In this document: positions 6,340 to 27,016 of the stretch, one piece after another
Layout of the letters: each line of letters opens with the position of its first letter
How positions within the stretch are numbered: the first letter of the stretch is position 1
Assembly: GCA_033065855.1 (NCBI GenBank)
Contig: JAVXUO010002005.1
Coordinates: 248,001-312,000, forward strand
Reading direction: 5' to 3'
DNA length: 64,000 bases
From: Escallonia rubra
Lineage: Eukaryota > Streptophyta > Magnoliopsida > Escalloniales > Escalloniaceae
The notes under the pieces: model-generated
Databases searched by the model: none
What the model was told of the DNA's origin: nothing
Seen by the model: the letters and a program-made list of their open reading frames with translations, nothing else
Position numbers and translations under genes: made by a program

Positions 6340-6600
6340 GAGTTGATCCGTTGAGAGCGCTAGCAAAATAAGAGATTTTGCTAGCGCGATTTGGGATGGA
6401 CGGCCCAGATCTTTTTTTTTTCAAAAGCTGTCAGCCGTCCGCGACACAGTGTCGCGAACAGGATTTTTTACCAGATTGCCCCTCCCCTCATCATCTACAC
6501 TGTGTAGCGGACGGCTTTTTTGTCCTAACAACCGTCAGTCAAAAAGTCGTCCGCGACACTATCTCGGGGACGACTTTTTGCCTGACGGTGGTCAAGTCAT
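6340..6600. repeat. E1 left terminal inverted repeat
   Basis: It pairs with about 15590-15848. It contains, in order, the outer GAGTTGATCCGTTGA, a perfect hairpin with 13-bp stem GCGCTAGCAAAAT (6357-6369 and 6375-6387, loop 6370-6374), the block GGATGGACGGCCCAGATC, a T tract, and subterminal palindromes at 6437-6459 (GTCCGCGACAC type), about 6491-6513 and about 6546-6568. Further decayed palindromes occur at about 6667 and 6706, just inside the repeat. Confidence 0.85.
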
Positions 6601-6732
6601 CCATATCCCCCCTGACAGTTGTCACATCAGTCATGTCGCCCCACGACTGTTACTTTGTCATTATCTCTCAGTCTGTGACACTATGTAGCGGACGGTTTTT
6701 ACTGTCTGTTACTCTATGTAGCGGACGTAAGA

Positions 6733-6739
6733 TATAAAA
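6733..6739 (+). promoter_or_regulatory. TATA box candidate for the E1 PMD-ULP gene
   Basis: TATAAAA lies just inside the left terminal repeat, followed by a pyrimidine-rich leader and a 5' UTR intron. The position is right for a promoter of the + strand gene starting at 7270. No transcript evidence is available. Confidence 0.45.
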
Positions 6740-6746
6740 CTTCGAA

Positions 6747-6838
6747 ACTCTCATTCATTCCTTCTTCTCACAAATTTATCTAGCAGCGTTGGCAAGCAAA
6801 ACTCTTATTCATTCCTTCTTCTCACAAATTTATCTAGC
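6747..6838 (+). repeat. 54-bp tandem duplication in the leader of the E1 PMD gene
   Basis: A segment running from ACTCTCATTCATTCC to ATTTATCTAGC (6747-6784) recurs at 6801-6838 with one substitution. It falls in the inferred 5' leader, just upstream of the 5' UTR intron donor near 6888 (CACGTAAGT). Confidence 0.8.
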
Positions 6839-6976
6839 GGCAACGCAATTTCTTCCCAAGAAATCCTTTAATCGTCTCATCAATCACGTAAGTTCACAAA
6901 CCAATCTGTTGTTCGTTCATAGTCATGAGTTGTTATGAGTATTGCGGCTCATGCATGGTTTTGAATATGTATTGAG

Positions 6977-7200
6977 CATGTGCTAGCGTTTGTCATGTAT
7001 TGAGCATGTGCTAGTTGTTATGAGTATTGCGGCTTATTTGATCATGTGCTAGCGTTCGTAAAAGCCGATTCCGTGTATGTATGTATGTATGTATATATAT
7101 ATATATATATATATACAACATGTGAACTTATGTAAGCACATGCTAGCGTTGTATATATTATGCACGTGCTAGCGTTGTATGTATTATGCATGTGCTAGCG
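6977..7200 (+). repeat. Six copies of a CATGTGCTAGCG motif in the 5' UTR intron of the E1 PMD gene
   Basis: The motif or a one- to two-base variant occurs at 6977, 7005, 7043, 7137, 7163 and 7189, around a (TA)n run at 7090-7117. The core GCTAGCG is shared with the terminal hairpin stem of E1. A related copy (CGCTAGCACATGC on the + strand, 25150-25162) sits at the equivalent place in E2, next to its own TA run. Confidence 0.7.
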
Positions 7201-7269
7201 TTGTATGTTTGAGAGAGTTTGATAAAAGCTTCCAACCTTGCCGTTTTTCCATAATTTCAGTTGAAAAAA

Positions 7270-8790
7270 ATGGATTTTAACTTTGGACCTGAAGATCCCT
7301 CCGTATTATACAACCAGGCAAACCATATCAGTACGCTCATATGGGATGGTGGAGTAAGATACTTTTTTTTTTTTATCAACTTTCTTATTCTTACGAACGT
7401 TGTATACAGTCTGTTTTGCTTAAATTGTATTTATTAATTCGTAGGAAATAGCACTTCTCAACATGGTATAATTTCAAAGCCTGGAAATTGAACAAATACC
7501 ACAAAAAATTACTGCGTGGGATTGGGTTTGATATTTTCACGCAAGGGCAGATCTTTCAACACCTTGACCGGCCCTTAATAGGTGCCCTTGTTGAAAGGTG
7601 GAGTACGTTTCACTTCCCTCTTAGAGAGATGACAATTACCCTAGAAGATGTAGGGTTCATCTTAAGGTTACCGATGATGGGGTGGCCGGTAATTGCTCCT
7701 CTGTCAGAAGTAACGAATAAGAGAACCGCCAGGGACTTCTTCACTTCAATACCTCAGGAACAATTTAGCATTGGTGGTATAAATTTAAAGTGGTTGGTAG
7801 ATACTACAAGGTTTTGCCGGAAAACTACACGGACGAGATGCTTGTGCTGTACACACAAGCCTTCAACTTGTGGGTGATGTGGGCAATTTTATTCTCAACG
7901 ACGTCGAAGAATACGGTCAGCGTGACATATTTACCGTTGTTGGGTAACCTGCGGGAGGTTGGGGATTATGCCTAGGGTGCAACAACTCTTGCGTACCTGT
8001 ACCGAGCATTGCACAAGGCAACGAGGCCCGACTCCAAAGCTATATGTGCATGTCTCTCGCTATTGCAGGTATATCATATAAATCTTGATTACGTGTTCGA
8101 TTTTTTTTGTTGAATCGACAATAAATTTTGACGATACTTTATATAATTTGTCTTTGCTCTCAGGTGTGGTCTTATGAACACCTTGCTACTGGCGCACCCA
8201 GGCGTAGGGACGGAACCTATAATGTATGGCCTCGGTTGTGTGCCTGAGAGTACAGCCGGAAGGACAACCACTACCCGAGGAGAGACGATCCCCATCACAA
8301 CATTACGTACTATCGAGGGGAGCTCGACTCGCTATCTCCAGGCCAGATGCGTTGGGCACCGTACAAACATTTGGAGCGACGGGTGGGAGAGTCGTTCGTC
8401 TTCACGCTCTCCAGGTTACAATGCACACCCCTGATCCATTTCGAGGTCGCAGAGTAGTAGCTGCCAGATCGCGTTATGCGTCATTTTGACTGCCTGCATG
8501 GGTTCCCAGCCGATGCCCCGAATATGAAGGTTAACTGGAACCCACCGGGTGTCGGACAGTTTTGTAAGGCGAATGCGCACGACTTGTGCGCACGAGAAAT
8601 TAAGGTTTGGAATTCCTGGTAGGAAACGCTGGCGGCCATTGTGTCAGAGCCTGACCCTGTGATCAGCACCGAACAGTACAATGAGTGGTACTACCGCATC
8701 ACTTGGAGGAGATTAGCCCCGGTAAGGTTTGAACGCGGAGAGAGGTACGCGTCTAGGGGTCAGATCGATGAGGGTATGTCATGCGATCTG
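7270..8790 (+). pseudogene. Plant mobile domain (PMD) part of the E1 PMD-ULP gene, broken
   Basis: Exon 1 (7270-7353, phase 0) starts MDFNFGPEDPSVLYNQANHI and is preceded by a 5' UTR intron ending TTTCAG at about 7260. A conserved start is supported by E2, whose copy begins MVFNPGPEDPSVLYDQANHI. Exon 2 begins near 7445 and encodes PMD hallmarks: LIGALVERWSTFHFPLREM, TITLEDVGFILRLPMMGWPV and TARDFFTSIP. It ends at the donor at 8069. A third exon from about 8162 carries WSYEHLATGAPRRRDGTYNV and SPGQMRWAPYKHLE, and the last part has NEWYYRITWRR. PMD (aminotransferase-like) proteins are found in MULEs and in host proteins such as MAIN/MAIL1. Breaks include indels near the start of exon 2, TGA in the third exon and TAG near 8620. 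A ULP protease part follows, probably as one fused gene. Confidence 0.8.
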
Positions 8791-8880
8791 GTAAGTTGCC
8801 CAACAACTGCTTTACATTGAATTTGAGGATTGTAAGTGTGTGTTTGAAGTTACTTATTTATTATCTCTTTGGGGATGTAG

Positions 8881-10357
8881 GTTAATGCCTCGCTCGCCTT
8901 CTTCTAGAATTTGAGTGAGCGGAGGGATCTAGTGGATGCAATGGGCAAGGAGCTTCGCCAACAGGCTGATGAGTTGGCGTTTGGCTGCGGGAATTTTTTG
9001 CGCCAAGCATCGAGACAGCCTTGGGGGCGTCAACTCGAGAATGGGTTATCCGGGGTGGCAGGCCTCTTATGTGAGCGAGGGATACGGTGATCCCTCGGGA
9101 CAGACTTCGGGGGTGAGCCAGGGATACGGTGGTCCCTCTGTACCGCCAATCACTATGGGACAGGCTCAAGCTCTGTGGGAAGATTACAGTGCACCCTCGT
9201 TCTCTTTGCTTTCTGACTCGGAACCCCAACCCCTCTCTCAGAGTCAAGTCACGCAGGACTGGGGTTTCAGAAACATCAGTCTATCCGAGACACTGCCCAT
9301 TGTCCCGTGGGCGGGACCATCTGTTGCCGAAGGAGGGCAATATCCCTGGTCGACCCCCGAAAAAGATATCGCAAAGGGCATCTATTGAGGCCCCTAAAGC
9401 GGCATAAACGCCAACTAATCCAAGAGCGTTATTTTAGTGCCCCCCCCCCTGAGACAAAGCGTCGTATAGTGTGGATCACCCGGAGGGCATGGATTACTGT
9501 TGCTCGTGGGGAGAAATGGCCTCGCTGGCTCCGGGGGATTGGTTAGACAACGGTGTCATCTCGACCTACGTGGAGATTCTGAATGATAGGGGTCGAGAGC
9601 GGCTGGACAAGTATCCACACGTTTTTATGGTGGATGCTTTTTTTCATAGCCTCATAGTATCTGAATGGCGTGAGTGGGTCGATCGAAGGCGGAAGAAAAA
9701 GTTGAGCGATTGGAGACCGTTCGCTAACCTACGAGCGTATCTTACTAAGGATAGTCCAGTGAGCACAAGGGTTGCCGACGTGTTTCTAATCCCATTTTTA
9801 GGGGAAAGCCACTGGTAATTGGTTTGCTATGAACCAACACAGAAGGTTGTATCAGTCATCGACAGTCTCCATGACGATACCATCCACATGTCTGTGTTGC
9901 AGATGTACAAAGCCCAGTTGGATGCTATGGTAATCTTACGATTGTTGTTTAATGCTTATTGTAACTTGCCAATTGTAAATGTTAACTCGTGTCTTACGCT
10001 GTTTTCTATTTCTCATAGAATCTACTTTGTGCCATGGTCCACTCTATCCGTGATGTAAGAGTACCGGCGTGGCCAAAGCTCCAATTTCGATTGAAGAAGG
10101 GGAGGCCCAAGCAACATAATACTTCGGACTGCGGTGTCTTCGTCTGCGTGTATATGGATTATATTTTTCAGTCTGAGAGCCTCAAGGCGGCCGTCTGGAA
10201 TCAAGAATACGCACAAGGCTTTAGATATAGGATAGCTTGGCAAATTATGAAAGGCCAGGCTAGATTAGGTTTATTGAAAATCCGTCTAAGGAAAAGAATC
10301 CGGCTCAACATAAGGACCTCAGTTGACATTGTAACATTCGAATCAATTTTTTTTTAA
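8881..10357 (+). pseudogene. Ulp1-like C48 cysteine protease part of the E1 PMD-ULP gene, broken
   Basis: After a low-complexity linker (about 8900-9480, with a C run at 9441), the sequence encodes a Ulp1 catalytic domain: GDWLDNGVISTYVEIL, FMVDAFFHSLIVSEWREW, VADVFLIPFLGESHW (catalytic His), then SVIDSLHDD (Asp). After an intron at about 9931-10018 come NLLCAMVHSIRDV and NTSDCGVFVCVYMDYI (catalytic Cys). The reading frame ends near 10357. C48 proteases remove SUMO or related modifiers; the role of MULE-borne copies is unknown. All three catalytic positions are still recognisable, but TAA follows the His-Trp at about 9818 and the linker holds several stops and frame changes. The intron position is shared with E2. 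The protease and PMD parts probably form one gene. Confidence 0.8.
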
Positions 10358-10589
10358 TAAATCTTGATTATTTTTATGAAAGTTGTCATTGATTTGATTT
10401 AATTTGTGTTGAGGATAAGTTGATTTGTGTTGAAGACGATTGATTTGACTATTTGTGTTGAAATCAGTTGACATTTGATTTGCGTTGCTTTGATTTGAGT
10501 TGACGTATATATATGGGTTTTTTTGCTCTCATTGAATGATTGAATGGTGGGAAACAAAACTAGGAAAAGTTCTAAAAATTATTTATGTT

Positions 10590-11235
10590 GCACCATCAGC
10601 TACACAGTGTAGCGGATGTATAGAAAGCAAAAAAATTTCTAAGTGGTGGAGTCAGAGTTACTGTTGCGCCGTCCGCTACACAGTGTAGCGGATGTATAGA
10701 AAACAAAAAAAATTCCAAGTGTTGGAATTCAGAGTTTCTGTTGCGCCGTTTGCTACACAGTGTGGTGGACGTAGAGAAAGCAAAAAAAATTCTAAGTGTT
10801 AGGGGTCAGAGTTTCAGTTGCCCCGTCCGCTACACAGTGTGGCGGACGTAGAGAAAGCAAAAAAATTTCTACGTGTAGGAGTTCAGAGATTTTGCTGCGC
10901 CGTCCGCTACACAGTGTAGTGGACGTATAGAAAGCAAAAAAAATTTCAAGTGTTGGAGTTAGAGTTTCTGCTACGCCGTACGCTACACAGTGTTGCGGAC
11001 GTATAGAAAGCAAAAAAAATTCTAAGTGTTGGAGTCATAGTTTCTGCTGCGCCGTCCGCTACACAGTGTAGCAGACGTATAAAAAGCAAAAAACATTTTA
11101 AGTGTTGGAGTCCAGAGTTTCTGCTGCACCGTCCGCTACACAGTGTAGCGGACGTATAGAAAGAAAAAAAATTCTAAGTGTTGGAGTTTTTAGACTTTGC
11201 AGATATGTCCGCTACATTGTGTAGCGGACATGGTT
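10590..11235. repeat. About nine tandem copies of a 77-bp unit, each with a palindrome (E1)
   Basis: Copies recur every 76-77 bp: the right palindrome arm starts at about 10608, 10684, 10761, 10838, 10915, 10991, 11067, 11144 and 11220. Each unit contains a near-palindrome with arms like GTCCGCTACAC around one base, then GTATAGAAAGCAAAAAA, TTCTAAGTGTTGGAGT and TTTCTGCTGCGCC. The array lies between the 3' ends of the two convergent E1 genes. E2 has a homologous array at 21290-21650 in the opposite orientation. Confidence 0.92.
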
Positions 11236-11239
11236 ATAA

Positions 11240-12250
11240 ATTAGCGACGAAATTTCTGTCCGTAATTCTCTTTTACGTATTTAATTTTTTTTGGAATTAT
11301 GAAATTAGCGACGGAATAAATATTTTAGCGACGGAATCAACAATCTCAATATCTCAAATGCACGATTAACAATCAAAAATCATCAATTAACAACCTAAAA
11401 TCATCGATCAATAATCACAATTCTCAAATGCACAATTAAGAACATAAAATTATCAAACATCAGTCTTTGTTCAAATAACACAAAATTGTTCAAATTGTAA
11501 AAATCCGATGCGATTAACTTGTTCAAATTGTTCAACATTGAGGGAAATTAACTTTTTCACAAGTGCTTCGATCAAACACCAACACGTGAAAACACATATG
11601 CCCCATGTGTTCAAAGATTACAAAGTCCCCTAGATGGAGGCCATGCTGCTACACGGATTTGTTCCAACCCTATTCGAAACAAATTTCCTCTTGGCCGCGC
11701 TTCTTCTCGTTTTTAACAAGCCGCGACCCCTTGCGACTGGTTAAAGTCGCTTCATCTGATCTCATTGTGGTAAGCAATCTGTAAAAGGCTACCAGTATGG
11801 CCTAACATATTCATAATACAGTAAGACATGTAAGTTTTTAACCAAATATAAAACTTTTAACACACACGAAAACACAGAGAAAGAGGGATGACATACAAGT
11901 TATGTATGAAAACCAGGAGCCATGACCTTGAAGAAGTGTCAGCCGACTGAAACATCACTGTTCAATGAAGCAGAAGCCATCAGGAGGGATCTGTCGCCGG
12001 GGGTGGCAACGCGTCGGGGGGAGGACGAGGATGTCGCTGGAGGCGTGTCGGTGTTGAGAGGAGGATGGGGTTGTCACCGGAGGTGGCGTGGCGTCGGGGG
12101 GAGAGAAGAGGTGTCACCGGAGATGTGGGACGTCGTAGAGGGGGTGGCGGGTGGGTGAGGTGTTTGAGACAGAAAGAGAAACGGGAGTAAGAAGAATGGC
12201 CAATCTGATTAATGTTTAACATGAGTTTTGGCGACGTGTTGGAGTTTTAA
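11240..12250. other. E1 internal spacer with a GC-rich patch
   Basis: The first part is AT-rich, with a few TTAGCGACGGAA-like words near 11240-11340 of the kind seen in plant non-autonomous DNA elements. Between about 11985 and 12160 there is a G-rich patch of repeated GTCGCCGG/GTCACCGGAGGTGGC phrases. That patch may be captured host sequence or a small minisatellite. It gives open frames on both strands without a recognisable domain. Confidence 0.4.
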
Positions 12251-12263
12251 ACTGTGCAGAGAT

Positions 12264-12516
12264 GTCCGCTACATTGTGTAGCGGACACAAAGAACACCAA
12301 AAGTTTTTTTTCTAATGAGCAGTCAGTTACATTGTGTAGCGGACAAAAAGAACACCAAAAAATTAGGACTCTGCAGAGCCGTCCGCTACATTGTGTAGCG
12401 GACATAAAGACCGCTAAAAAAAATTTGTTGATTAGCCCCGTCCGCTACATTGTGTAGCGGACATAAAGAACACTAAGATTCCAAATGCACTATGTCCGCT
12501 ACACTATGTAGCGGAT
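12264..12516. repeat. Five palindrome units at 54-59 bp spacing, downstream of the E1 transposase
   Basis: Palindromes start at 12264, 12322, 12381, 12440 and 12494. Most have left arm GTCCGCTACAT against right arm GTGTAGCGGAC; the copy at 12322 is decayed on its left arm. The spacers share the words CATAAAGA and AACAC(C/T)AA. This second array has a shorter period than the 77-bp array and lies just 3' of the minus-strand FAR1-like gene. Confidence 0.88.
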
Positions 12517-12663
12517 GGGACAAATCAACAAAAAAAAAAAACTTAAAACTTAGATTTGATGCCTCTCATAGGTCCATCAAAAATAAAATTCCACTCTTCG
12601 GTCGAAAGATTATTAGAAAAAAAATTACAAACGTCAAACAGACTTGATGGCTTATACAAAAAA

Positions 12664-14959
12664 TTAAAGGTCCATTGCAGCTTTTTCTTCCTCATCTTTG
12701 GCGTCATCTCTTTCCTCGTCTTGCAAACCCCCTGGACTTATCCCCAGTGCCTTGTAATGGTTCCGCTTGTCATGGTCGGTCATTTTGTTGCACAATGCAC
12801 ACTTTCTCAGCTTTTTAGGTTGAGTTGCTTTTTCAATAGAGCTATTCATCCGCGTGGATCCTTTACAGCCTTTCGTTTGCGATATAATTGGATCCAAAGG
12901 CCGGATATCATTGTCGTCTTCCTCCCTCGGCTCATCATCTTCTGATATCGTTTTAGGCTCGGTGTCAACCGCATTGCTGACTGAAGCTACTTCCAACTGG
13001 TCGACGATAAGCTCTTGCTGCTGAGCTACCTCGAGGAGATGTTTATATCCGGCCATTGTAGTAGCACCTTTTAAGGACAAACGGGTGAACATTGTCACCA
13101 AATGATTATACCACAATGTCTCTGATTCTTCAAAGTCAGTATACGGGTGCTCCGGAAAGACAATGGTACCGTGCAACCTATTTGCAACCTTCGTCCACCA
13201 TGACAAGACATATTTATTAGGGATTGCCTTGATATTCTTCTGGGTGAAAAAGTGCAGAATGTGTCTACACAGGATGCCATAGAACTCAAACTTCTTGCAA
13301 ACACATGTCACCGAGTCCGTCAATGTGACGTGGCTCACCGTATAAATTCTACGCAGCTTCTTAGGGACGAGGTCATTCACAAGCGAATAAACCTTGTACT
13401 CACGCGTAGACTTTTCTGCCACCTTGTTTGTACTGTATCGGCCCGATTTTCGCAGCTATACTTGGTATAGCATGAAGATCTCCTTCATATAGACTTTGGC
13501 ACCGTTCAGTTCTAGCGGGGTCTCAAGCAACCTTCTTCTTTGTTTGTACGTGGTTGCAAAGTCTGTAGCCCTTTCTTTCACGAATAACGACGCAACTGCT
13601 TTTTGTGCGAATGTGACGAAACTCTTCAATTTTCTATTTTTACCCACATAACTATCGAATGTGGCATTAATAGATTCACTCATGTCCGTCGTTTTCATGG
13701 CCGCAGAAAAATGCCTCCTCGTGTACACGCCAATCCATTGCTCTTTGAGCTCGTACAAGTGCTGGAGCCACTCGTTGTCTTACAATGAGTAATCCTCAAT
13801 AAGCTTTTCCCACCTTTCCTCAAATTTCTCAATCGTTAACCACTTGTTAACGCCCTTGTCAAAATCCTGTTTAAAGTCTGGATACTTTGTATACACGTGA
13901 TGCAGATGTTCAGGATATTTGTTTCTTATATGCCAAGTGCACAAGTTGTGTCGAGTGTCTGGGAAGACGGTAGCAATAACCTTCTTCATTGCCAAATATT
14001 GATCGGTGATTACAACTTTGAGTGCTTTATTGTTCATGGCCTCCAGCCACGCCCTAAACAACCATACAAAAGAACTCTAACTCTCGTCCCTTAACAAGGC
14101 GAACCCGAACATGATGGAGTGATAATGACGATTGACGCCCGTGAAAGGAGCAAAGAGCATTAAGTACTTGTTGTTACGGTATGTGGTGTCGAAAGTCACG
14201 ACATCCCCAAAATGCTTATAAGCTAGCCTCGAACGACCATCGACCAAAAAAATTGTGCTAACTTGATGCTCGTCGTCAAGTTTATAATTGAAGGTAACCT
14301 GCGGGTCCTCCATCTGCATCCGCTTCAATAGGCTCATTGTGGATTGAGCATCATTGAGGTCATATACGGCTCATCTTTGGGTTCGGACCGTGTTACAAAC
14401 GTCTGTCGTGTTAAAGTTTAGATTCTGAATTCCTCCAGCCTATTCAGCAAGAACATTAATCATGTCGATAGGTCCTAGTTGCGCATTGCTCATTGTCTGA
14501 ATCAGGCTCCTTGCGACCTTACCCATCTTCTTGTGTTGATGTATCTGACTCACCTTAGAAGGGGTTACTAACGGGTGATTGTGTTTTAATTTCAGACTAG
14601 TAATAAGCTAATGATCTTGTTTGAGTTTATAGCTTACGAACATCTTGACCTGGAAATTCGTGCGAGCCAAAGTAGTCACGTCTTCTACGCGAATATCCTA
14701 TTTCGTCATCACTGTCATCGTTGCCTATGCGTGTCTTATTTTGCACTGGGTTTCTGCCCCTATGACACTCGTATAAGCGAGAGCATATTTTTTTTGTTAT
14801 GTTGCTTGTTCTTATAGTCTTTATTCTAATGCCAAAATCAACCCTCAATAAATACGCTCGAAAAAATTCTTCGGCTTCTTCCAATGTTTGAAATGTTCGT
14901 CCTAGATACGGATCACTAGCATCTACGGGGGTGTTGGAGCTCGCCACGAAATCAAACGT
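12664..14959 (-). pseudogene. FAR1-like MULE transposase of E1, broken
   Basis: On the minus strand the following are seen in order: a FAR1-type DNA-binding region (YLGRTFQTLEEAEEFF, then a basic stretch and HNHPLVTPSKV), the MULE transposase core (DVVTFDTTYRNNKYLMLFAP with the first Asp, VVITDQYLAMKKVIATVFPD with the second, then LCTWHIRNKYPEHL), and a SWIM zinc finger (CVCKKFEFYGILCRHIL, 13315-13270). An acidic C-terminus follows, with CALCNKMTDHDKRNH. FAR1/FHY3 proteins derive from such transposases. Comparison with E2 shows three nonsense changes, near 14070 (Glu to TAG), 13770 (Gln to TAA) and 13455 (Glu to TAG), plus frame losses near 14400-14630. The E2 start codon corresponds to ACG here (14957-14959). 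The element is therefore not autonomous. Confidence 0.88.
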
Positions 14960-15480: not shown

Positions 15481-15589
15481 CAGAAAAAAGAGCTAAGAAT
15501 TAGGTCACTTTTGGGTATAGGTGCAAGTTGTCCACGATACTGTACGGCGGACAGTGTTGGGGACAACTCTGACATGTATAGAAATAAAC

Positions 15590-17668: not shown

Positions 17669-17671
<3 letters not shown>

Positions 17672-17945: not shown

Positions 17946-18222
17946 GCAGATTTACCAAAAATGCTATAATTGCCAGCTCTTCTTCCTTTTTCAACCTCTT
18001 TAGCTCCACTTGCCTCCATTTTCAGCTCCCTTCAAGTTCCAAGCTTCAAGCTTCATTCAAGCAAGGTAAGTTTATGATCTCAAAAGTTTATGGGTAGAGT
18101 GGTGAAGTTTTTTTTAGATGTTTATATAAATTTTTTAAAGATTATGTTTCTTGCATTTGGCATGCTATGAGATTACGTTTGTTGAATTTGACATGTTATG
18201 AGATTAATTTTTTTTTGGATCT

Positions 18223-18647
18223 CAAAAGCTTATGAGATTATGTTTGTTGTATTAGTCTATTCATCAGAATAATTTTTATTTGTTATGTTCAAGAAATTAT
18301 ATTCTTGTAGTTAATTTATATGCCTAAAAATGTTACAATTGGATACTTAAACCTAATTTTTTTGAGATTATATTTGTTGTATTTGGCATGCTAAATTAGT
18401 CTATTCATTAAAGTAATTTTTATTTGTTATGTTCAAGATATTATATTTTTGTAATTAATTTCCATGCCTAAAAATTGTTACAATTTGATACTTAAACGTA
18501 AGTTTTGATTATGTTTGTCGTATTTGTCATGCTAAATTAGTTTATTCATCAAAGTAATTTTTATTTGTTATGTTTAAGAAATTATATTTTTGTAATTAAT
18601 TCCCATACCTAAAAAATGTTACAATTTGATACTTAAACGTAAGTTTT
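18223..18647 (+). repeat. About three tandem copies of a 142-bp unit in the E2 transposase 5' UTR intron
   Basis: The phrase AATTTTTATTTGTTATGTT recurs at about 18271, 18415 and 18556, followed each time by TTAATT..CCTAAAAA..TTACAATT and ACTTAAAC. The array fills most of the intron whose donor is at 18066. E1 does not show this array in its intron. Confidence 0.85.
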
Positions 18648-18670
18648 TTCTACATATGTCTTGTATCACA

Positions 18671-21074
18671 ATGTCTGCTTTCGTGTCAAACTCGAACACA
18701 CCAATAGATGCTAGTGACCCTTATATAGGGCGAACGTTTCAAATAATGGAAGAAGCCAAAGAATGTTTTCGAGCATAATCATTGAGGGTTGGTTTTGGCA
18801 TTAGAATCAGGACAACTAGAACAAGCAACATAACCAATATATATATGCTCACGGTTATATGAGTGTCATAAGAGCAAACACCCATTGCAAAATGAGAAAC
18901 ACGTCCGTAATGATTATAGTGATGACGAAATAGGATATACACTGCGAAGACGGGACTTCTTTGCACGTATGAATTACAAGGTCAAGATGTTCGTAAGCCA
19001 TAAATCCATATAAGATCATTGACTTATTATTAGCTTGGAATTGGCGCACAATCACCCGTTAGTAACGCCTTCGAAGCTAAGTCAGATGCATCAACACAAG
19101 AAGATGGGTAATGTCACAAGAAGCCTGATTCACACAATGAGTAACGCGCGGATATGACCTATCGACATTGTTAATGTTATTGCTGAACAGGTTAGGGGAA
19201 TTCAGAATCTGAATTGTAACACGACAAAACATTCCTAACGGGTCCGAACCCAAAGACGAGCCGCGTATGACATTAATGATGCTCAATCCACAATGAACCT
19301 ATTGAAGCGGATGCAAATGGAGGACTCGCAGCATACTTACGAGTATAATCTTGACGACAAGCACCGATTTACCACAATTTTTTGAGTCGACGGTCGTTCA
19401 AGACTTGTTTATCAATATTTTAGGGATGTCGTGACTTTCGACACTACCTACCGTACTAACAAGTACTCGATGCCTTTCGCACCTTTCACAGACGTTAATC
19501 ATCATTATCACTCCATCCTATTTTGGTTCGCATTGTTAAGGGATGAGAGCGAGAGTTATTTTGTATGGTTGTTTAAGATGTGACTGGAAGCCATGAACAA
19601 CAAAGTATTTAAAGTTATCATCACCGATCAAGATTTGACAATGAAGAAGGTTATTGTTGCCGTCTTCCTAGATACTTGACAGAACTTGTGCACTTGGCAC
19701 ATAAGCAACAAATACCCTAAACGTTTGCATCACGTGTATGCAAAGTATTCGGATTTTAAACAAGATTTTGACATGTGCATTAACAAGTCGTTAACAATTG
19801 AGAAATTTGAAGAGAGGTGGGAAAAACGTATTGAGAATTACTCGTTGCAAAATCACGAGTGGATCCAACACTTGTATGAGCTCAAAGAACAACTGATTGG
19901 CATTTACACGAAAAAAGGTATTTTTCTGCGGGCATGAAAACGAAGGGCAGGAGTGAATCTGTAAATGTCATGTTCGATAGCTATATAGGTACAACTACGA
20001 ATTCGAAGAGTTTCGTCATAAGTGCCCAAAAATCGGTTGCATAGATATTCGTGAAAGAAAGGGTTGCGGACTTTGCAAGCACATACAAACAAAGAAGAAT
20101 GTTGTTTGAGACCCCGCCGGAGGTGAATGATGCAAAAGTCTATATAAAAAGAGATGTTCAAGCAATACCAAGTAGAGCTGCAAAAATCGGGACAATACAA
20201 TATAAACAAGGTGGCGGAAAAGTCTACACGTGAATACAAGGCTTATTCATTGATGAATGACCAGTGTGTAGACTGTATACGGTGAGCCATGACACAGAGA
20301 CGAATACAGTGACATGTGTTTGCAAGAAGTTTGAGTTACATGGCATGTTGTGTCGACACATTCTGTGGTTTTTCACTCAAAAGAATATCAAGGCAATCCC
20401 CGATAAATACGTCTTGCCGCGGTGGACTAGGGTTGCAAACAGGTTGCATTGTACCATTACCTTTTCGGAGCATCTGTATACTGATTTTGAAGAATCAGAG
20501 ACGTTGCGGTATAATCATCTGGTGACAATGTTCACATGTTTATCTGTAAAGGACTCTGTTACAATGGCCGGATATAAATATCTATGCGATCTAGCAGAGC
20601 TGCAAGATCTCATTTGTCGACCAGTTTGAAGTAGCTTCAGTCAGCAATGCGGTTGACACTGAGCCTACATAGGAATCAGAAGATGATGAGCCGGTTGAGG
20701 AAGAAGACAATGATATTTGGCCTTTGGATCCAATTATATCGCAAATGAAAGGGAAAAATCCGTACTAATTGAAGGAGAGATGGATTGAAGTTTCAATCGG
20801 ATACCAATTGCTTAGATGCATGGCCAGAAATGTTGCAAGAAGGCGCTGAGCCATTCTACCTCATGCTAAGGCATGGGCCATACGCAAGAGATCTACACGG
20901 ATGAAAAGCTCTATTGAACAAGTAACCCAACCTAAAAAGCTTAGAAAGTATGCACCGTGCAGCAAAATGACCAACTATGACAAGCGGAACCATTACAAAG
21001 CACTGGGGATAAGTCCAGGGGGTTTGCAAGACAAGGAAGAAGATGATGCCGAAGAAGATGTAGTGGACCTTTAG
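18671..21074 (+). pseudogene. FAR1-like MULE transposase of E2, heavily mutated
   Basis: The copy is homologous to the E1 transposase. It starts MSAFVSNSNTPIDASDPYIG and includes the transposase core (FDTTYRTNKYSMPFAPF), then LCTWHISNKYPKRLHHVYAK, FEERWEKRIENYSLQNHEW and the SWIM finger CVCKKFELHGMLCRHIL (20309-20359). The end is acidic, with NHYKALGISPGG, and a stop at 21072-21074. Many stops interrupt it, for example near 18776, 18857 and 19582 (TGA replacing Trp). An insertion of about 130 bp occurs at about 20760-20895 relative to E1. The leader intron acceptor seen in E1 (CTACATAG) reads CTACATAT here (18650-18657), so splicing may also be damaged. It retains the ATG that E1 has lost. 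Confidence 0.85.
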
Positions 21075-21289
21075 TCTACGGACTTTGTAATAATATGTTA
21101 TGAGCCATCAAGTCTGTGGATGTTGTATTTGAATTATAGAGTTTGTAATAATCCTGTAATAATCTTAGATATTTATTCATACTCGAATTTGATTTACCAT
21201 TGGGTTAGTCATGAACTGTGTTTCTTAACCATCTGAACTTTAATGTACTCTTTCAGTGACCAATGCAGCTTTGCAAAAATATTGACATC

Positions 21290-21650
21290 CAACACTTAGA
21301 AAAAATTTGCTTATTTTCTCCATCCGCCAGATAGTTTAACGGATGGCCAAGCAGAAACATTGACTTCCAACACTTAGAAAAAATTTGTCCATTTTCGCCA
21401 TCCACTAGATAGTCTAGCGGACGGCCTAGCAAAAACATTGACCTCCAAAACTTAGAAAAATTTCGCCCATTTTCACCTCTGGTAGATGGTCTAGCGGATG
21501 GCCTAGCAGAAACATTGGCCTCCAACACTTAGAAGAAAAAAATCGCCCATTTTCACCTTCGACCAGATAGTCTAGTAGACGGTTTAGCAGTAAAATTAGT
21601 CTACTCAACCGTCCGCTACACTATGTGGCAGACCGTTGAGCAGACTAATT
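21290..21650. repeat. E2 copy of the 77-bp palindrome array
   Basis: About four units with a 77-bp period (starts near 21321, 21398, 21475 and 21553) plus a final palindrome at about 21611-21633. Each holds CAACACTTAGAA, the reverse complement of the E1 unit word TTCTAAGTGTTG, so the arrays are homologous. The palindromes are mostly of a different inner type, for example CATCCACTAGATAG against TCTAGCGGACGG. Confidence 0.88.
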
Positions 21651-21834
21651 AAAATCTTTGTTCCTTCATTTTCTTACCCACCACCAATGACCACAACACA
21701 CAAAATTCTCAAAAGAAATACTCAACCACAACACACAATATTCTCAGAAGAAAAACCATAAACACATAAAATTTCATAAACACACGAAATACTGAAATGC
21801 TTTTTTATTATATAAACACATAAAATATCCAATG

Positions 21835-22700
21835 TTATTCGACATCGTCTGTAGCCGGATTTACAATATCCCTAACTAGTATAGGCCGTCCTTGATCAAT
21901 TTGCCAAGCTATCATGTATCCAAAGTTTTCTATATCTTCTTGGCTTCAGACGGCCTTCTTGAGGCTCTCGGACCGACAAATGTAGTCCACGTACATAAGA
22001 CAAGGACGCCGCAGTCCGACTAATTATTTTGCATGGGCTTCTGTTTCTTCACTCGAACTTCGAGATTCGGCCTTAACGGTACTTTTTGCCCACTGAGAGA
22101 GTGAAGCATGGCACAAAACATATCCTGTGGAGGAATAAAAATAGCGTAAGCTACGAGAGTTGACTTACAATAAGCAAATTAAGAAATAGAAATACTGTAA
22201 CAAAAATGCAAAGATTACCATACTGTCAATTGTTCTCTTAAAAGGTCCTTCAGAGGCATCAAAGGGACATCGTTATGAAGACTGTCGTGGATTGAAATTA
22301 TCATAGCATGTGGTTCATAGCAAAGTAAATACCAGTGTGAGTGCTCTAAGAAGGGTACTAGAAAGACATCCGCCTCATGGAAGCTCACCGAATTCGCAGT
22401 ATTCGTGAAAAATGTAGTGAGCTCCCTAGGCTGACGCCAATACATCAATGTTTTCTTCCCCCTCATCAGACACCATCGTTGCCATTCTCCACAGAGCATT
22501 CTATGAAAAAGTGCATCCAACATAAAAACACGGGGATACGCATTTGCCCTATCCCTCTCTCAACACATCAGAAGCTTGATGTAGGCAATCATCACCGTAT
22601 CTTCCAACCAACGACTCACCCTGAGGGTGGACATTCCATCCTACGAGAAATAGTACTCAACGGCACGACAGTCTACACCACTTTTTTAGCGTAGCTGGGG
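21835..22700 (-). pseudogene. Ulp1-like C48 protease part of the E2 PMD-ULP gene, broken
   Basis: On the minus strand: RWLEDTVMIAYIKLL, VFMLDALFHRMLCGEWQRW, ADVFLVPFLEHSHWYLLCYE (catalytic His), IHDSLHNDVP (Asp), then an intron at the same position as in E1. Next comes DMFCAMLHSL, followed by SDCGV (catalytic Cys) and a frameshift. The tail continues with YVDYICRSESLKKAV and MIAWQIDQGRPILV, ending at TAA 21835-21837. In-frame stops lie before the Ser-Asp-Cys-Gly and upstream near 22560. The protease is not functional as encoded. Confidence 0.78.
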
Positions 22701-23380
22701 GAGCTCGCTAAAGTATCGTTGGTGGACTATGGCACGTTTTGCGACTTCAAAGGCTTCAACGGATGACCTTTAGGATAAGAGGGATTGATCGGGGGATATT
22801 GTCCTCCTCAAGGCTCTTCAGATATCCCAAGGCCGAAAGTGGAAAGTCCTGCCCCATGGACGAGTTGTAGTGACTCGGAGAGGTTGAAGTTCGCGAAGTC
22901 GAACTCTTGTGTGACTTGACTCTGAGGACCTGGTGTAACCTCTGATTCCCTAAGCAAAGCAAACAAGGGCTGACTCCACTCGTCCTAATAAGGCAGTCCC
23001 ATACCCGAAGGCGACCCTCAAGCATCATCCATGCCAGCTCCGGAGGGACCACCAACTCCCTCGCTCACCCCTGAAGTCTTCCCCGATAGATCACCCATTT
23101 CCTCGCTCACATGGGAAGGCTGCCACGAGAGATAATCCATTCTCGGGCTCACGCCCGAAGGCTGTCCCGTATAACGGCTCATAAACTCCCCGCAGCCATA
23201 TGCGAAGATCTCATCATAGGAGCGAAGATCCGCTCACATGGTATCTAGCAGATCCTTCCACTCACTCAGTTTCTGGAAGAAGGCAAGTGAGGCATCAACT
23301 TACATCCAATTAGATCATAAGTAACTTTAAACACGAACGAGATTGAATGCAAACTTACGATATCAAATTCAATTGAAAGT
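22701..23380 (-). other. Linker between the PMD and ULP parts of the E2 gene
   Basis: Low-complexity text matching the E1 linker only loosely. On the minus strand repeated phrases such as (T/C)CTCTCGTGGCAGCCTTCCC and GAGCGAGGG correspond to the GTGAGCGAGGGATACGG phrases of E1. It has stops in all frames. Confidence 0.45.
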
Positions 23381-25079
23381 CATTAGGAACTTATGAGCTC
23401 GAATGATCTACGCTCATCAATCTGACCACTAGGCTGATATTTCTTGCCTCTTGTCCACTGTATTGGGTTTATTCTCTTCCGGGTGATACGGTAGTACCAC
23501 CCCAGATAGTGCTCGATGTTGACCACATGGTCGGGCTCTGACACAATGGATGACAGCGTGTCGTGCCAAGAACCCCACATCTTAAGTTCGGCAGCGCACA
23601 ATTCGAGTGCATTCACCTACCCAGAGAAAGAGATGGTTGAATCAAAATAATTTCGTTTAAAGTTCTATTTTTGTCAGAGGGCAATATGAATGTTCTATCA
23701 TGTTCCATCAACACACTAAAAGGGTTATATGATATATCCGGTGTGGAAGTAGGCCAACATTTCTATTGGAAAATAGGGGACTATTGGACACCCGATGGGT
23801 TCCTGTTAACCCTCATGTCTGGGGCATCAGCTGGCAACCCCTGCAGGCACTCAAAATGGTGCATGGCGGGATCCGATAATTGCCACTCCGCGATCTCCTA
23901 ATGGATAAATAGAGTGCATTACAACCCAGAGAACGTAAACACGAACAAATCTGCCACCCGTCCCTCTAAATGTTTGTATGGCGCCCAACATATTTGGCTC
24001 GGAGACAGCAAGTCGAACTTCCCCCGATAGAATACAATGTTGTAATGGGGATCATTTCTCCTCTGGTAGTGGCTCTCCTTCTGACTGTACTCCCAAGCGC
24101 GCAACCGAGGCCACACATTATCGGTTCCCTCCCTACGGTTGGGTACGCCGACACTAAAGTGTTCATAAGACCATACCTGAGAAAAAAGACAAATCAGGGT
24201 TATATGGTTAAAATTTATTATGCATTGACTAATAAAAAATTATCGAAAAAAAAAATAAAATGAGTTATATGACATACTTGCAACAATAAGAGATATGCAC
24301 ATGTATCTTTGCAGTCAGACCTCATTGCCTTGTGCAATGCGCTATACAGGTATGCAAGTGGGGCTGCACCCCAAGCATACTCCCCAACCTCATGCAGGTT
24401 ACCCAACAGAGCTAAATATTTCTGGTGAACCGTGTTCTTTGTCGTCGTTGGGAATAAAATTGCCCCCCATCACCCACAACACGAAAGTCTTTGTGTGCAT
24501 TACAAGCATCTCCTCTGTGTAGTTTTCCGACAAAACCTTGAATTTTTCTACCAACCACCTCAATTTTATTCCACCATGTCCAAATTTGTTCTCGGGTATT
24601 GAATTGAAGAAGTCCCTAGCAACTCTCTTATTTGTTGTGGAAACCCTAGTAAAATTAACCGGTTGTCCCATCACGGGTAACCCTAAGATGTACCCTACAT
24701 CTTCTAAGGTTATTGTCATCTCTCCAAGAGGGAACTTCTCCACTGTTCAACAAGGGCACCTATTAAGGTCCGGTCAAGTTGCTGAAAGATATTACCATAA
24801 GTAAAAATCCCAAAACCCACTTCACACATTAATTTTTTTAGTGTTTTGTTCAACCTCCACTCTACGGATTGTTCGGTTACTTCTACTGTGATAAGTGTTG
24901 TTCTTTCCTACGAATTAACAAAGACTGTTTAAGTAAAGTAAAAGGTATACAATGTTCATGAAACTAAAAAAATAAACAAAAAATTAGTATCTTACTTGTC
25001 CATTCCAGATAGATGTACTAATATGGTTTGCTTGGTCGTACAATACGGAGGGATCTTCTGGTCCAGGGTTAAATACCAT
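23381..25079 (-). pseudogene. Plant mobile domain (PMD) part of the E2 PMD-ULP gene, broken
   Basis: The start at 25079 gives MVFNPGPEDPSVLYDQANHI, then an intron. Exon 2 (about 24922 down to 24287) carries FGIFTYGNIFQQLDRTLIG, TITLEDVGYILGLPVMGQPV and VARDFFNSIPENKFGHGG. A further exon (24176-23900) holds WSYEHFSVGVPNRREGTDNV, the pattern SPSQICWAPYKHLEG, and the last part LGWYYRITRKRINPIQW. A deletion of 7 bp relative to E1, near 24740, breaks the frame in exon 2. Comparison with E1 defines the shared exon structure. The TA repeat upstream of its leader intron is where E3 inserted. Confidence 0.8.
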
Positions 25080-25189
25080 TTTTTGCGACTGATATAATGC
25101 AAAAACATCAAGTTTGAAATTTTTTTACCAAACGTTGACAAATTGTCAACGCTAGCACATGCATTAATATATATATATATATATATATG

Positions 25190-26328
25190 GAGCTGATCCA
25201 TTGCTCGCGCTAGAAACTTGGGTTAAGTTGCCAGCGCGATCTGGCCGTCCACGCAAGATCTGTGGATGGTCCAGATCTTTTTTTTTTTTTTTACGTTTTT
25301 TTAAGTCTGTCCGCTACATGATGTAGTGGACGATACTTTTGACAAAAATACCCTTATGCACGTCCGCTACATAATGTAGCGGACGGTAGAAAACTGATCT
25401 TTGTCTTGCTGGGTTGTCATTTTGCTCTTTATTTCGTTGGTGATTATTCAGATTCCAAGTTCACGTATCTGATCTCCGGTAACGAAACCGTGTACCATCA
25501 CCCAACTTTACCACCACCTAGACCATCACGCCATCATCATCTACCATTACCACTGCAGGGATAGAGGACCTGGCTGGGAGAGAAAAAAGTCAGAAATCCT
25601 CATAAGCTAGCTACTTTTCCAGCTAGTTCTGTTAGTCGGTGGATGTTATAACACATCACTTTCAAAAGGCAAGGAAAGCCTAAACCTTATCCTTATCGGA
25701 AAGTAACAGATCTGGTAAGCAGCTCCACCATCTCACCCATTTTCCACCATTTTTGCCAAGGTCACCACCAACGAACACTTCCACCACCTCACCCATCGAT
25801 CCACCAAACAAACCCACCATCACCCTCCAAAGCTCCACGCAAGAGAAAAATACTAATTAAACAGATCTGAATTAGAGAAAAATCAGGAGAAAATACTAGA
25901 TGAATTAGAAAGAATTAGATCTATGATGTCACGCCGCCAAGGAAGCGCTGAGGAGGCCGCAAGCATGGCTTGCGATGTTGCTGAGGAGGCATCGACCGCG
26001 ACAGCTAAGCTGCAAAGCAGAGCTATCTTCTATCGTACTTCAGAGCATAGAGGGGGAGAGAGAGAGAAGTGAAATGTAATGTGAATGGGCTTTCTGCTTT
26101 TGTATATATATGTCCGCTACATAATGTAGCGGACAGACGCTTTTGTTGAACAGTCAACTGCGTGGGTGAGGGGTATTTTTGTCAAAAGTATCGTCCGCTA
26201 CACAATGTAGCTGACGTACTTAAAAAATACGTAAAAAAAAACATCTGGGCCATCCACAGAGCGCACGTGGACGGCCAGATCGGGCTGACAACTTCTCATA
26301 TTTTGCTAGCGCTATCAACGGATCAGCT

Positions 26329-26329
<1 letters not shown>
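25190..26329. mobile_element. E3: 1.14-kb non-autonomous MULE nested in E2
   Basis: The ends GAGCTGATCCATTGC and GGATCAGCTC form terminal inverted repeats similar over roughly 200 bp. Both flanks are TA repeat (25167-25188 and 26331-26359), so it inserted in the internal TA tract of E2. Subterminal palindromes at 25309-25331, 25362-25384, 26112-26134 and 26193-26215 carry ATA or ATG centres (arms GTCCGCTACAT). The interior (25400-26090) lacks transposase sequence. It is CCA-rich, and contains an open frame 25923-26072 (49 codons, starting MMSRRQGSAEEAASM) of unknown nature. It may be a Pack-MULE carrying captured sequence. Confidence 0.85.
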
Positions 26330-26330
<1 letters not shown>

Positions 26331-26377
<47 letters not shown>

Positions 26378-26378
26378 T
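26331..26378. repeat. (TA)n(CA)n microsatellite in the E2 PMD leader
   Basis: TA repeats from 26331 pass into CA repeats at about 26359-26376. Together with 25167-25188 this was one tract before E3 inserted. Confidence 0.9.
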
Positions 26379-26589
26379 CTACACATACATAATACATAAT
26401 CAAAATCACGCGCAATACTCACAAACTCTAGATTATACACAAATAAAGCATTAGTTTGTGGACTTACTTGATTAATTGGACGATTTAAGGAATTCTTGGG
26501 AAGATTATGCACAGATCTACTTGTTAGCGCCGCTGGGAAGATAGGAAAGAAAAAAGAAGGAAGAAGACTTTCGAAATAAGGGGTTTAGG

Positions 26590-27016
26590 CCATTTAACTA
26601 TAACGTCCGCTATATTATCTAGCAGACGAGTATAAGTTGAATAAGGACAAACTGCATCACCGTCCGCTAGATAATGTAGCAGATGATAAGAAGTTGGATA
26701 AGGACAATCTGCCCAATCGTCCTCCAGATAGTGTAGCGGACAGAAAATGGATAAATGAGACATTTGTCAGCCAAAAAGTAGTTCGCTACACAGTGTAGCA
26801 GACTACTTTTAGCCGGACAAATATCAGGGTCAAAAGGTAGTCCGCTATACTGTGTAGCGGACGGGCACGCTGGGGCATTTTGGACAAAATTTTCGTCCGC
26901 TATACAGTGTATCAGACGGCTAGTTTTTTTTTTTAAAAAAAAAATAAGATCTGGGTCGTCCATCAGTCGCACTGGCAACTTAGTCGAAGTTACCTGCGCG
27001 GTCAACGGATCAGGTC
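26590..27016. repeat. E2 right terminal inverted repeat and subterminal palindrome series
   Basis: Palindromes start at 26605, 26662, 26719, 26781, 26840 and 26895, at 55-62 bp spacing. The hairpin near 26969-27000 has arms GCACTGGCAACTT and AAGTTACCTGCGC (10 of 13 paired). The outer end is GGATCAGGTC. Confidence 0.82.

Follow-up and report, generated by a model that had tools for sequence, protein, structure and literature searches.

In En/Spm, a member of the CACTA superfamily, the element protein TnpA reads a subterminal array of a non-palindromic 12-bp motif and acts in both transposition and promoter demethylation. To our knowledge, the recognition by a transposon protein of its own family, and the drift of that recognition, have been worked out best for VANC in Arabidopsis. 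The target words given for VANC in VANDAL MULEs are YAGTATTAY for VANC21 and AGTTGTCC/AGTTGTAC for VANC6 (PMC5735166; PMC10398659). Other MULEs carry an Ulp1 gene, which in grapevine is also described from Jittery-like families, downstream of the transposase (PMC13317346; PMC2528002), and the function of these genes in plant MULEs is called unknown in the accessible part of a recent review (PMC13317346). Here we describe three related elements in which some forty sites allow fixed and drifting letters to be read directly.

The three elements and their genes

The window, that is the whole stretch of DNA analysed, is 64 kb of Escallonia rubra contig JAVXUO010002005.1, and the elements occupy positions 6340-27016:

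6340-15848, no strand: E1, a decayed TIR-MULE carrying 23 palindromes and the remnants of two convergent genes
7226-10354, plus strand: second gene remnant of E1, with a plant mobile domain (PMD, 1e-13) and an Ulp1-type Peptidase_C48 domain (2.7e-6)
12547-15025, minus strand: transposase gene remnant of E1 (partial FAR1, MULE, SWIM), with in-frame stops between the pieces
17669-27016, no strand: E2, a sister MULE in the opposite orientation to E1, interrupted by E3, with 14 palindromes of its own
18623-21080, plus strand: transposase gene remnant of E2 (SWIM), 82.8% nucleotide identity to the E1 gene span
21876-25125, minus strand: second gene remnant of E2 (PMD, 1.7e-14 and 4.6e-14), 70.4% nucleotide identity to the E1 gene span
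25190-26329, no strand: E3, a 1.1-kb element inserted in (TA)n within E2, with two plus two palindromes

Long terminal inverted repeats, a MULE trait, are present: the E1 arms (6340-6488 and 15700-15848) align over 149 nt at 92% identity and those of E3 over 120 nt at 85%, the latter including some of the flanking TA repeat. The TIR 15-mers lie at 6340 and 15834 in E1, at 17669 and 27002 in E2, which has long inverted similarity to E1, and at 25190 and 26315 in E3. Stretches of (TA)n flank E3 on both sides and E1 on the left (long) and right (short), and E2 on neither side; the TA-repeat flanks of E1 and E3 would mask a target site duplication of 8-11 bp, and no match between the two flanks of E2 is visible by eye.

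The MULE domain PF10551 matched two E1 pieces above cut-off (7.8e-13 and 3.9e-8) and the SWIM zinc finger PF04434 was found in E1 (5.3e-6) and E2 (1.2e-4). A FAR1 fragment of 40 residues in E1 (0.0021) scored 19.1 bits against a Pfam cut-off of 28.1 and had no matches among solved structures. In the second gene the E1 Peptidase_C48 match, at 10019-10354, is above cut-off; E2 piece 22218-22559 gave no Peptidase_C48 match, the E2 counterpart of the E1 match being another piece that holds a stop, and DUF1985 reached only E 0.16, below cut-off. E3 has no long reading frame, the longest stop-free pieces wholly within it being 71-73 codons. With the transposase gene decayed in E1 at least, these copies are probably inactive.

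A 23-bp palindrome in non-coding DNA

A symmetric motif scan of the window found 41 copies of the 23-bp near-palindrome GTCCGC nAnAn N nTnTn GCGGAC, of which E1 holds 23, E2 14 and E3 4. This agrees with the initial annotation, which had reported about forty such sites and one common word in three sister MULEs, and had correctly placed those at 6437, 25309, 25362, 26112 and 26605; a further site, put at 21398, is real but starts at 21400. The sites are arranged as follows, none of the features having a strand:

6437-6726: E1 left subterminal series, sites 6437, 6490, 6549, 6671 and 6704
6527-6593: long dyad around site 6549, with counterparts around 15620, 17855 and 26781; a long dyad around 21611 is unrelated
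10595-11229: E1 76-77-bp array, sites 10595-11131, plus a TACAT-type site at 11207
12264-12516: E1 58-59-bp array, sites 12264, 12322, 12381 and 12440, plus 12494
15530-15751: E1 right subterminal series, sites 15530 (doubtful), 15620, 15675 and 15729
17796-17939: E2 left subterminal series, sites 17796, 17855 and 17917, which are 127, 186 and 248 bp from the end
21322-21633: E2 internal array, TAGA-type sites 21322, 21400, 21477 and 21558, plus 21611
25309-25384: E3 left sites 25309 and 25362, of TACAT/ATGTA type
26112-26215: E3 right sites 26112 and 26193
26605-26917: E2 right subterminal series, sites 26605, 26662, 26719, 26781, 26840 and 26895

With the threshold set, coarsely, to 0.05 random matches per 64 kb, the symmetrised motif gave 40 non-overlapping sites, 39 inside 6340-27016 and a single one elsewhere, 2726, which scored 16.5; when one random match per 64 kb was allowed, 41 were inside and the lone outside site was again 2726. 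Within the window the motif is dense in the non-coding DNA of the elements and rare elsewhere (41 versus 1). The lowest-scoring sites, 21477 (9.4) and 21558 (5.5), are both in register with the E2 78-bp array, and the doubtful site 15530 is part of a separate dyad whose register differs. The outer hexamers alone, GTCCGC-N11-GCGGAC, match 34 times when up to 2 mismatches are allowed in their 12 letters, always between 6437 and 26895 and nowhere in the rest of the window, and every other spacing from 3 to 20 bp gave at most 4 matches.

The E1 left sites lie 97, 150, 209, 331 and 364 bp from the element end, with TATAAAA following at 6734, and the right sites 296, 206, 151 and 97 bp, three being near-equidistant from both ends (97/97, 150/151, 209/206); for the E2 right series the distances are 389, 332, 275, 213, 154 and 99 bp. 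Subterminal spacing, previously put at 54-62 bp, is mostly 53-62 bp but also takes values of 33, 81, 90 and 122 bp. The internal arrays noticed earlier are real, with periods of 76-77, 58-59 and 77-81 bp, and the E2 internal array and the E1 77-bp array have in common a AAGTGTTGG block. Nineteen sites (14 in E1, 5 in E2) are internal, between the genes, and none of the 41 falls in the four drawn gene spans, which make up 60% of E1 and E2; with the seven E1/E2 clusters taken as units, such gene-free placement has a probability of 0.4^7, about 0.0016.

Among the 82 half-sites, arm letters 2, 8 and 10 are nearly fixed, with one change each, whereas letters 7, 9 and 11 changed 19, 19 and 27 times. 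These three slots take 65 of the 67 inner changes, against 2 at the other inner letters, or 21 against 2 when distinct events are counted (p 0.001, for a pattern spotted before testing and with some ten possible choices unallowed for). Independent events are few, because the copies are related through array growth and TIR duplication. The inner letters differ among the eight site clusters (within 0.828, between 0.733, p 0.0005), and much of this difference falls inside E1. The proposal that inner bases confer element specificity was not supported: when whole clusters are the units, the effect of element has p 0.27 for inner letters and p 0.18 for the slots (p 0.014 if sites are counted as independent), and the E1 arrays are closer in their inner letters to the E2 ends (0.811) and to E3 (0.836) than to the E1 ends (0.732).

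With all sites taken together, the arms are more alike than expected by chance (p 0.0008), but shuffling within site clusters leaves the symmetry slight (p 0.03 for all letters, p 0.28 for inner letters). It had been suggested that both arms often change together. This is borne out by the cells changed in both arms (18 against 9.5 +/- 2.5, reached in 0 of 500 shuffles) and by covariation (0.225 against 0.167, 0 of 500), but not by the pairs changed on both sides (6 against 4.9, 148 of 500) or by further pair types (17 against 14.7, 51 of 500). The covariation comes from pairs 7 and 9; pair 11, stressed in the initial annotation, carries no joint-change signal. Slot pairs that changed are symmetric in 13 cases and asymmetric in 36, of which 33 changed in one arm only and 3 differently in both.

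Possible readers of the palindromes

We give an even chance to the reading that the palindromes are cis-acting sites at which an element-encoded DNA-binding protein would bind as a dimer, their clustering serving avidity. A monomer would bind one 11-bp arm, reading the constant frame T2, C3, C6, A8 and A10 of GTCCGC-n-A-n-A-n together with looser slots 7, 9 and 11, which have drifted between site clusters. In favour of this reading are the near-confinement of the sites to the elements and their absence from the gene spans, the exact hexamer spacing, the fixed letters, the excess of jointly changed cells and of covariation, the matching distances from the E1 ends, the sites retained in E3 and those alignments in which palindromes are better conserved than spacers; against it are the alignments in which they are not, the two covariation measures that stay within the shuffles, the non-significant inner symmetry within clusters, the lack of an element effect and the small number of independent events. 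Sites lie upstream of both convergent genes, and hence at either end of the transposon, with more of them between the genes, so that a bound protein could act on promoters, chromatin and end pairing. Because the layout of the palindromes resembles that of Arabidopsis VANC targets, the PMD and Ulp1-protease gene becomes a candidate reader and, by analogy, its PMD plus C48 product, faster-diverging than the transposase, might tentatively be supposed to act like VANC; we consider it about as likely a reader as the FAR1-MULE-SWIM transposase.

The FAR1-like transposase, named at the outset as the simplest binder, was a guess only: its FAR1 fragment is below cut-off, the FHY3/FAR1 site is in no palindrome, and the second element gene, for which VANC offers a precedent, had been overlooked. 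That the FAR1-MULE-SWIM transposase is the only reader, the palindromes being its subterminal sites and the internal arrays stray copies, is a sub-case of the dimer-site reading and possible, if somewhat unlikely. It would fit the near-equal distances from both ends, although long TIRs alone would produce these, the retention of palindromes in E3, the subterminal repeats known in the MULE ends of Muta1 (PMC5225508) and the homo- and heterodimerization described for FHY3/FAR1 (PMC13306707). However, 19 of the 41 sites are internal, and the FHY3/FAR1 site CACGCGC (PMC13306707) has a single copy in the elements, at 26407, outside every palindrome, the shorter CACGCG sitting in the E2 left TIR itself (17685 and 17712). 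Both this site and the VANC6 word were rejected as the source of the palindromes, AGTTGTCC being found three times inside and twice outside the elements.

It is doubtful that there is no reader, and that an old palindrome multiplied as arrays expanded and TIRs were duplicated, with template-switch (quasi-palindrome) correction in replication keeping its arms alike and array homogenisation making its clusters different. Dyads that far exceed 23 bp at 6549, 15620, 21611 and 26781 (8-9 of 10 flank pairs; background probability of at least 8, 0.0012), and partly at 17855, are consistent with such a history, their flanks also showing both-sides changes (flank-only, E1 left against E2 right, p 0.018), as is the finding that differences lie between clusters and not elements. 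The palindrome is less conserved than its spacer in the E2 78-bp array (98/135 against 265/309) and, in a six-end alignment, between the E1 ends (55/69 against 165/188; about equal, 55/70 against 198/250, in a longer E1-only alignment), and outer letters do no better than spacer in the E1 77-bp array (272/336 against 1221/1487). The order is reversed in the E1 59-bp array (132/138 against 104/199), the E2 ends (58/69 against 148/207) and the E3 ends (41/46 against 117/156). Moreover, correction between arms does not predict fixed letters 2, 8 and 10 beside changing letters 7, 9 and 11; among the 13 copies whose slots changed symmetrically, 11 pair at no more than 5 of 10 flank positions and 11 retain one or more unpaired positions in the arms; and the gene spans are free of sites.

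It is unlikely that the elements captured sites read by a transcription factor or silencing factor of the host, as the 43 kb of window outside 6340-27016 gives only one weak comparable copy, and we know of no plant site that the motif resembles, although the positions upstream of both genes, with the E1 left series just before a TATA-like box, and one common word without element-level specificity would suit a single factor. An RNA hairpin or DNA cruciform as the functional form is very unlikely: the self-complementary word, the long dyads and the frequent breaking of the pair adjoining the centre (17/41), which a loop would permit, are offset by exact spacing and specific letters kept beyond mere pairing, by arm mismatches without strand bias (34 G-T against 26 A-C, p 0.37, unsorted by transcript direction) and by Rfam, which at gathering scores had 0 matches in the window.

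If an element protein does read the sites, slots 7, 9 and 11 offer natural variants for measuring how reader and site change together, and the Ulp1 genes of plant MULEs gain a testable role. A broader extension of the dimer-site reading, which we consider quite unlikely, is that TIR-MULEs beyond the VANDAL group own a sequence-specific anti-silencing system, in which a dimer of the PMD and Ulp1-protease protein would bind 23-bp dyads across the non-coding parts of its family; the fixed frame, with slots 7, 9 and 11 of each arm looser, would then permit stepwise drift of site and protein, array by array, until sisters diverge. As element-level specificity was tested and not found, we lowered our confidence in the dimer-site reading, from a little better than even, and in this extension, which had stood at merely unlikely.

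Comparison with described systems

We found no published description of the palindrome motif within a partial coverage of the literature; the 10-mers TGTAGCGGAC/GTCCGCTACA appear in published papers, none of them on transposons among the matches listed. Exact pattern scans of viral and prokaryotic contig collections gave 0 matches each, which has little bearing on plants, and searches of these collections for protein relatives with one MULE fragment gave 2 and 21 pattern matches, of which none could be confirmed. Plasmid-collection matches in four Acinetobacter records were judged to be chance (best places of 65 matching one 115-base stretch, 73.5%).

Like the elements described here, Muta1 has long TIRs and a short motif repeated near both ends and kept in non-autonomous copies, but its repeats are 12-bp tandem units with 3-4-bp spacers, its palindrome is a 10-bp terminal motif, and the accessible text mentions no internal arrays such as those of E1 and E2 (PMC5225508). 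MuTAnT (PMC4486113) and SaTar (PMC5907723) target TA microsatellites, and E3 and E1 are similarly TA-flanked; however, the E2 flanks are not (TA)n, the terminal sequence of E1-E3 differs from the MuTAnT search mask (PMC4486113), and the available parts of these accounts mention no dyad arrays (PMC4486113; PMC5907723). KIU/Kaonashi and other Ulp1-carrying MULEs have, as E1 does, an Ulp1 peptidase gene within the element, although the portions accessible to us mention neither palindromic repeats nor the PMD fusion of E1 (PMC13317346; PMC2528002).

The VANC system is alike in having a short word dense in non-coding regions, terminal and internal and often in tandem repeats, whose letters vary among related copies, and a second gene that diverges more than the transposase (PMC5735166; PMC10398659, in their accessible parts). 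It differs in that its words are 8-9 bp in same-orientation arrays, whereas ours are 23-bp dyads, and the string 'palindrom' does not occur in the available text (PMC5735166). The VANDAL elements are classed as non-TIR MULEs (PMC13317346), whereas TIRs are present in E1, E2 and E3; DUF1985 and DUF287 are the domains shown for VANC proteins, whereas the second gene here has PMD, plus C48 in E1; and VANC words differ between related families, giving family-specific action, whereas here the differences detected are between clusters. A further trait of the VANC system is an element protein that binds the word and removes DNA methylation.

Elements and placement of the palindromes

The palindrome GTCCGC nAnAn N nTnTn GCGGAC, two 11-base arms around one base, lies in three sister MULEs:

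6340-15848: E1, MULE in orientation opposite to E2
17669-27016: E2, sister MULE in orientation opposite to E1
25190-26329: E3, a 1.1-kb element sitting in TA repeats of E2

The initial annotation had counted about forty palindromes across these elements, a figure confirmed by a symmetrised motif scan (threshold of one random match per 64 kb) that found 41 sites within them and one match elsewhere in the window. The latter, at 2726-2748, is single and weak (score 16.5) and has no further similarity to E1 or E2 by blastn. In a strict scan, all 34 windows with at most two mismatches to GTCCGC-N11-GCGGAC fell within the elements; the hexamers were spaced by 11 bp in 34 cases, every other spacing from 3 to 20 bp occurring at most four times. 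Gene spans, as drawn from E1/E2 similarity, make up 60% of E1 plus E2 and contain none of the 41 sites, which form eight clusters:

E1, left: 5 sites
E1, 77-bp array: 8 sites
E1, 59-bp set: 6 sites (including 11207 and 12494)
E1, right: 4 sites
E2, left: 3 sites
E2, internal: 5 sites
E2, right: 6 sites
E3: 4 sites

The outer three sites of E1 lie 97, 150 and 209 bp from its left end and 97, 151 and 206 bp from its right end, and in the left series a TATA-like box lies no more than 20 bp past the final site. Distances in E2 are 127, 186 and 248 bp on the left and 99, 154, 213, 275, 332 and 389 bp on the right; those in E3 are 119 and 172 bp, and 114 and 195 bp. A second conserved word of the array unit, the 9-mer AAGTGTTGG, stands in the spacers of the E1 and E2 internal arrays, with nine copies in the elements (eight in arrays) and none elsewhere in the window:

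10717, 10948, 11024, 11100, 11176: plus strand, E1 array
21289, 21367, 21522: minus strand, E2 array
19865: minus strand, non-array copy

Both E1 and E2 retain two convergent gene remnants, a transposase and a plant mobile domain (PMD) gene. The E1 transposase has MULE and SWIM domains, plus a FAR1 match below threshold, and is interrupted by in-frame stops, one of them within the MULE domain; in E2 the SWIM domain was detected. The E1 PMD gene additionally carries a Ulp1-type Peptidase_C48 domain; the E2 piece at the corresponding place contains a stop codon. Between E1 and E2 the PMD gene diverges faster (70.4% identity over its spans, down to about 0.6 in a later part) than the transposase (82.8%). 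The stop-free pieces of the E1 transposase, in a single frame, are:

12667-13455
13459-13779
13783-14076
14080-14370

A 26-bp tandem repeat (GCACGTGCTAGCGTTGTATGTATTAT) occupies 7128-7209, immediately upstream of the E1 PMD gene, and TCAACGCTAGCACATGC occurs near 25146 in E2, at the corresponding flank of the PMD gene there. A short GC-rich 40/80-bp tandem repeat (11992-12141), possibly captured DNA, separates the two arrays of E1; the tandem-repeat listing gives no counterpart for it at the equivalent place in E2. The outermost 31 bases of the E3 right end (26299-26329) are identical to those of E1 (15818-15848), and in the end alignment the palindromes behind them belong to different types; element ends and palindromes thus look modular.

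The remainder of the window showed no similarity to E1 or E2 by blastn at E 1e-3. Judging by its gene and transposon families, the window appears to be of plant origin. Downstream of the elements are copia-type gag-pol frames, as well as frames with Foie-gras and Gryzun domains, which we take to be a TRAPPC11-like host gene. Minus-strand copia-type frames are bracketed by 40-bp-period repeats of one consensus (48330-48451 and 53772-53893), possibly the LTRs of a single retrotransposon.

Fixed letters and variable slots

Across 82 half-sites (both arms of the 41 sites), changes from GTCCGCTACAC at positions 1 to 11 numbered 16, 1, 4, 19, 11, 8, 19, 1, 19, 1 and 27, so that T2, A8 and A10 are near-fixed. 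Slots 7, 9 and 11 hold 65 of the 67 inner changes (positions 7-11), or 21 against 2 elsewhere when each combination of cluster, position and letter is counted once; the corresponding p-values, 1e-12 and 0.001, are too small, since the pattern was noticed before testing. Among the 59 outer changes (positions 1-6), 21 are transitions at CpG and a further 24 are transitions of other kinds, a pattern that decay of methylated elements would produce.

Conservation relative to the spacers is mixed. The palindrome is better conserved in the E1 59-bp array (132/138 vs 104/199, where spacers align poorly), the E2 ends (58/69 vs 148/207), the E3 ends (41/46 vs 117/156), the six ends pooled (553/715 vs 1497/2250) and the E1 77-bp array (563/644 vs 1221/1487; inner letters 291/308, outer only 272/336). 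It is roughly equal between the E1 and E2 arrays (31/46 vs 66/101) and for the E1 ends in a longer alignment (55/70 vs 198/250), and worse in the E2 78-bp array (98/135 vs 265/309) and for the E1 ends when all six ends are aligned (55/69 vs 165/188), where outer letters account for 11 of the 14 palindrome differences.

Inner slots vary from cluster to cluster: inner-letter likeness was 0.828 within and 0.733 between the eight clusters (p 0.0005), as against 0.800 and 0.789 for outer letters (p 0.18). Labelled by element, inner letters gave 0.772 vs 0.724, with p 0.014 when individual sites were shuffled and 0.27 when clusters were kept whole; slots alone gave 0.0065 and 0.18, respectively. Since, in addition, the E1 arrays are nearer to the E2 ends (0.811) and E3 (0.836) than to the E1 ends (0.732), the slots differ by cluster and not demonstrably by element. 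Inner letters do differ, but with three elements the proposal that they confer element specificity is not supported.

Symmetry of the arms and its extent

It had also been claimed that the arms often change together. Cells changed on both sides numbered 18 vs 9.5 +/- 2.5 in shuffles (0/500; 36 distinct rows), slid pairings yielding 2 to 7, and the covariation score was 0.225 vs 0.167 shuffled (0/500). However, the two measures least misled by relatedness of the copies were not exceptional: pairs changed on both sides (6 vs 4.9 shuffled; 148/500) and further pair types (17 vs 14.7; 51/500). Pairing was in excess at pairs 7 (p 0.004) and 9 (p 0.001), and weakly so at pair 1 (p 0.03); pair 11 showed no excess (p 0.47). 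Once the arrays were collapsed to 27 rows, the excess at pair 7 persisted (p 0.003), that at pair 9 became borderline (0.05) and that at pair 1 disappeared (0.14). Arm symmetry had p 0.0008 under a global shuffle and was weak under a within-cluster shuffle (all letters p 0.03, outer 0.04, inner 0.28). Changed slot pairs were symmetric in 13 cases and asymmetric in 36, 33 of these being altered in one arm only. Symmetric change is real, but is carried by a few shifts: position 7 goes from T to G in the E1 ends, position 9 from C to G in the E2 array, and position 11 from C to T in E3 and in a portion of E2; "often" was too strong.

A dyad of about 67 bp encloses sites 6549, 15620, 26781 and, less clearly, 17855, at an equivalent place in the E1 and E2 ends; a long dyad at 21611 is unrelated to it. 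At least 8 of 10 flank pairs match in 4 of the 41 copies, against a background rate of 0.0012, and flank pairs at offsets 12, 27, 28 and 29 are altered on both sides between E1 and E2. The shared-position excess is modest and depends on which ends are set against each other: four comparisons gave p values from 0.006 to 0.49, and the flanks by themselves gave p 0.018 for E1 left vs E2 right. These observations speak for symmetry maintained beyond 23 bp, whether by selection or by template switching; a mutational origin finds its strongest argument in them. An inverted pair of AGTTGTCC, a reported VANC6 word, flanks the doubtful site 15530 at 15526-15568, probably by chance or as a piece of a longer dyad.

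Candidate readers and known systems

Judged from sequence, there is about an even chance that the palindromes are binding sites of a dimeric reader encoded by the elements. Near-constant letters, a strict spacing and positions outside the gene spans are features that the sites of a dimer would show; they are not predicted by pairing of the arms alone (mismatches show no strand bias, 34 vs 26, p 0.37) or by arm correction alone. We found no description of the 23-bp motif in the partial collection of literature searched.

The transposase, proposed initially as a FAR1-like binder, would fit as this dimeric reader in view of the equal distances of sites from both ends, the retention of palindromes in E3, and the precedent of Muta1 with its subterminal repeats (PMC5225508). 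The FHY3/FAR1 word CACGCGC occurs in none of the 41 sites.

The product of the PMD gene may alternatively be the reader, in the manner of VANC. VANC proteins of Arabidopsis VANDAL MULEs bind short repeated words in the non-coding regions of their own family, where methylation is lost; these words vary by family, and VANC has diverged more than the transposase has (PMC5735166, PMC10398659). A review states that some VANC genes bear a Ulp1 domain (KIU) (PMC13317346), and a further paper links the PMD proteins MAIN and MAIL1 to TE silencing and, for a gene set, to a promoter motif (PMC7156037). Several features tell against a VANC-like reader: the dyad form of the sites, the TIRs of the elements, a search of the second gene that found no DUF1985, and an element effect of p 0.27 with clusters kept whole. 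The likeness is that the second gene of E1 combines PMD and Ulp1-type domains, diverges faster than the transposase and stands beside similarly laid-out sites.
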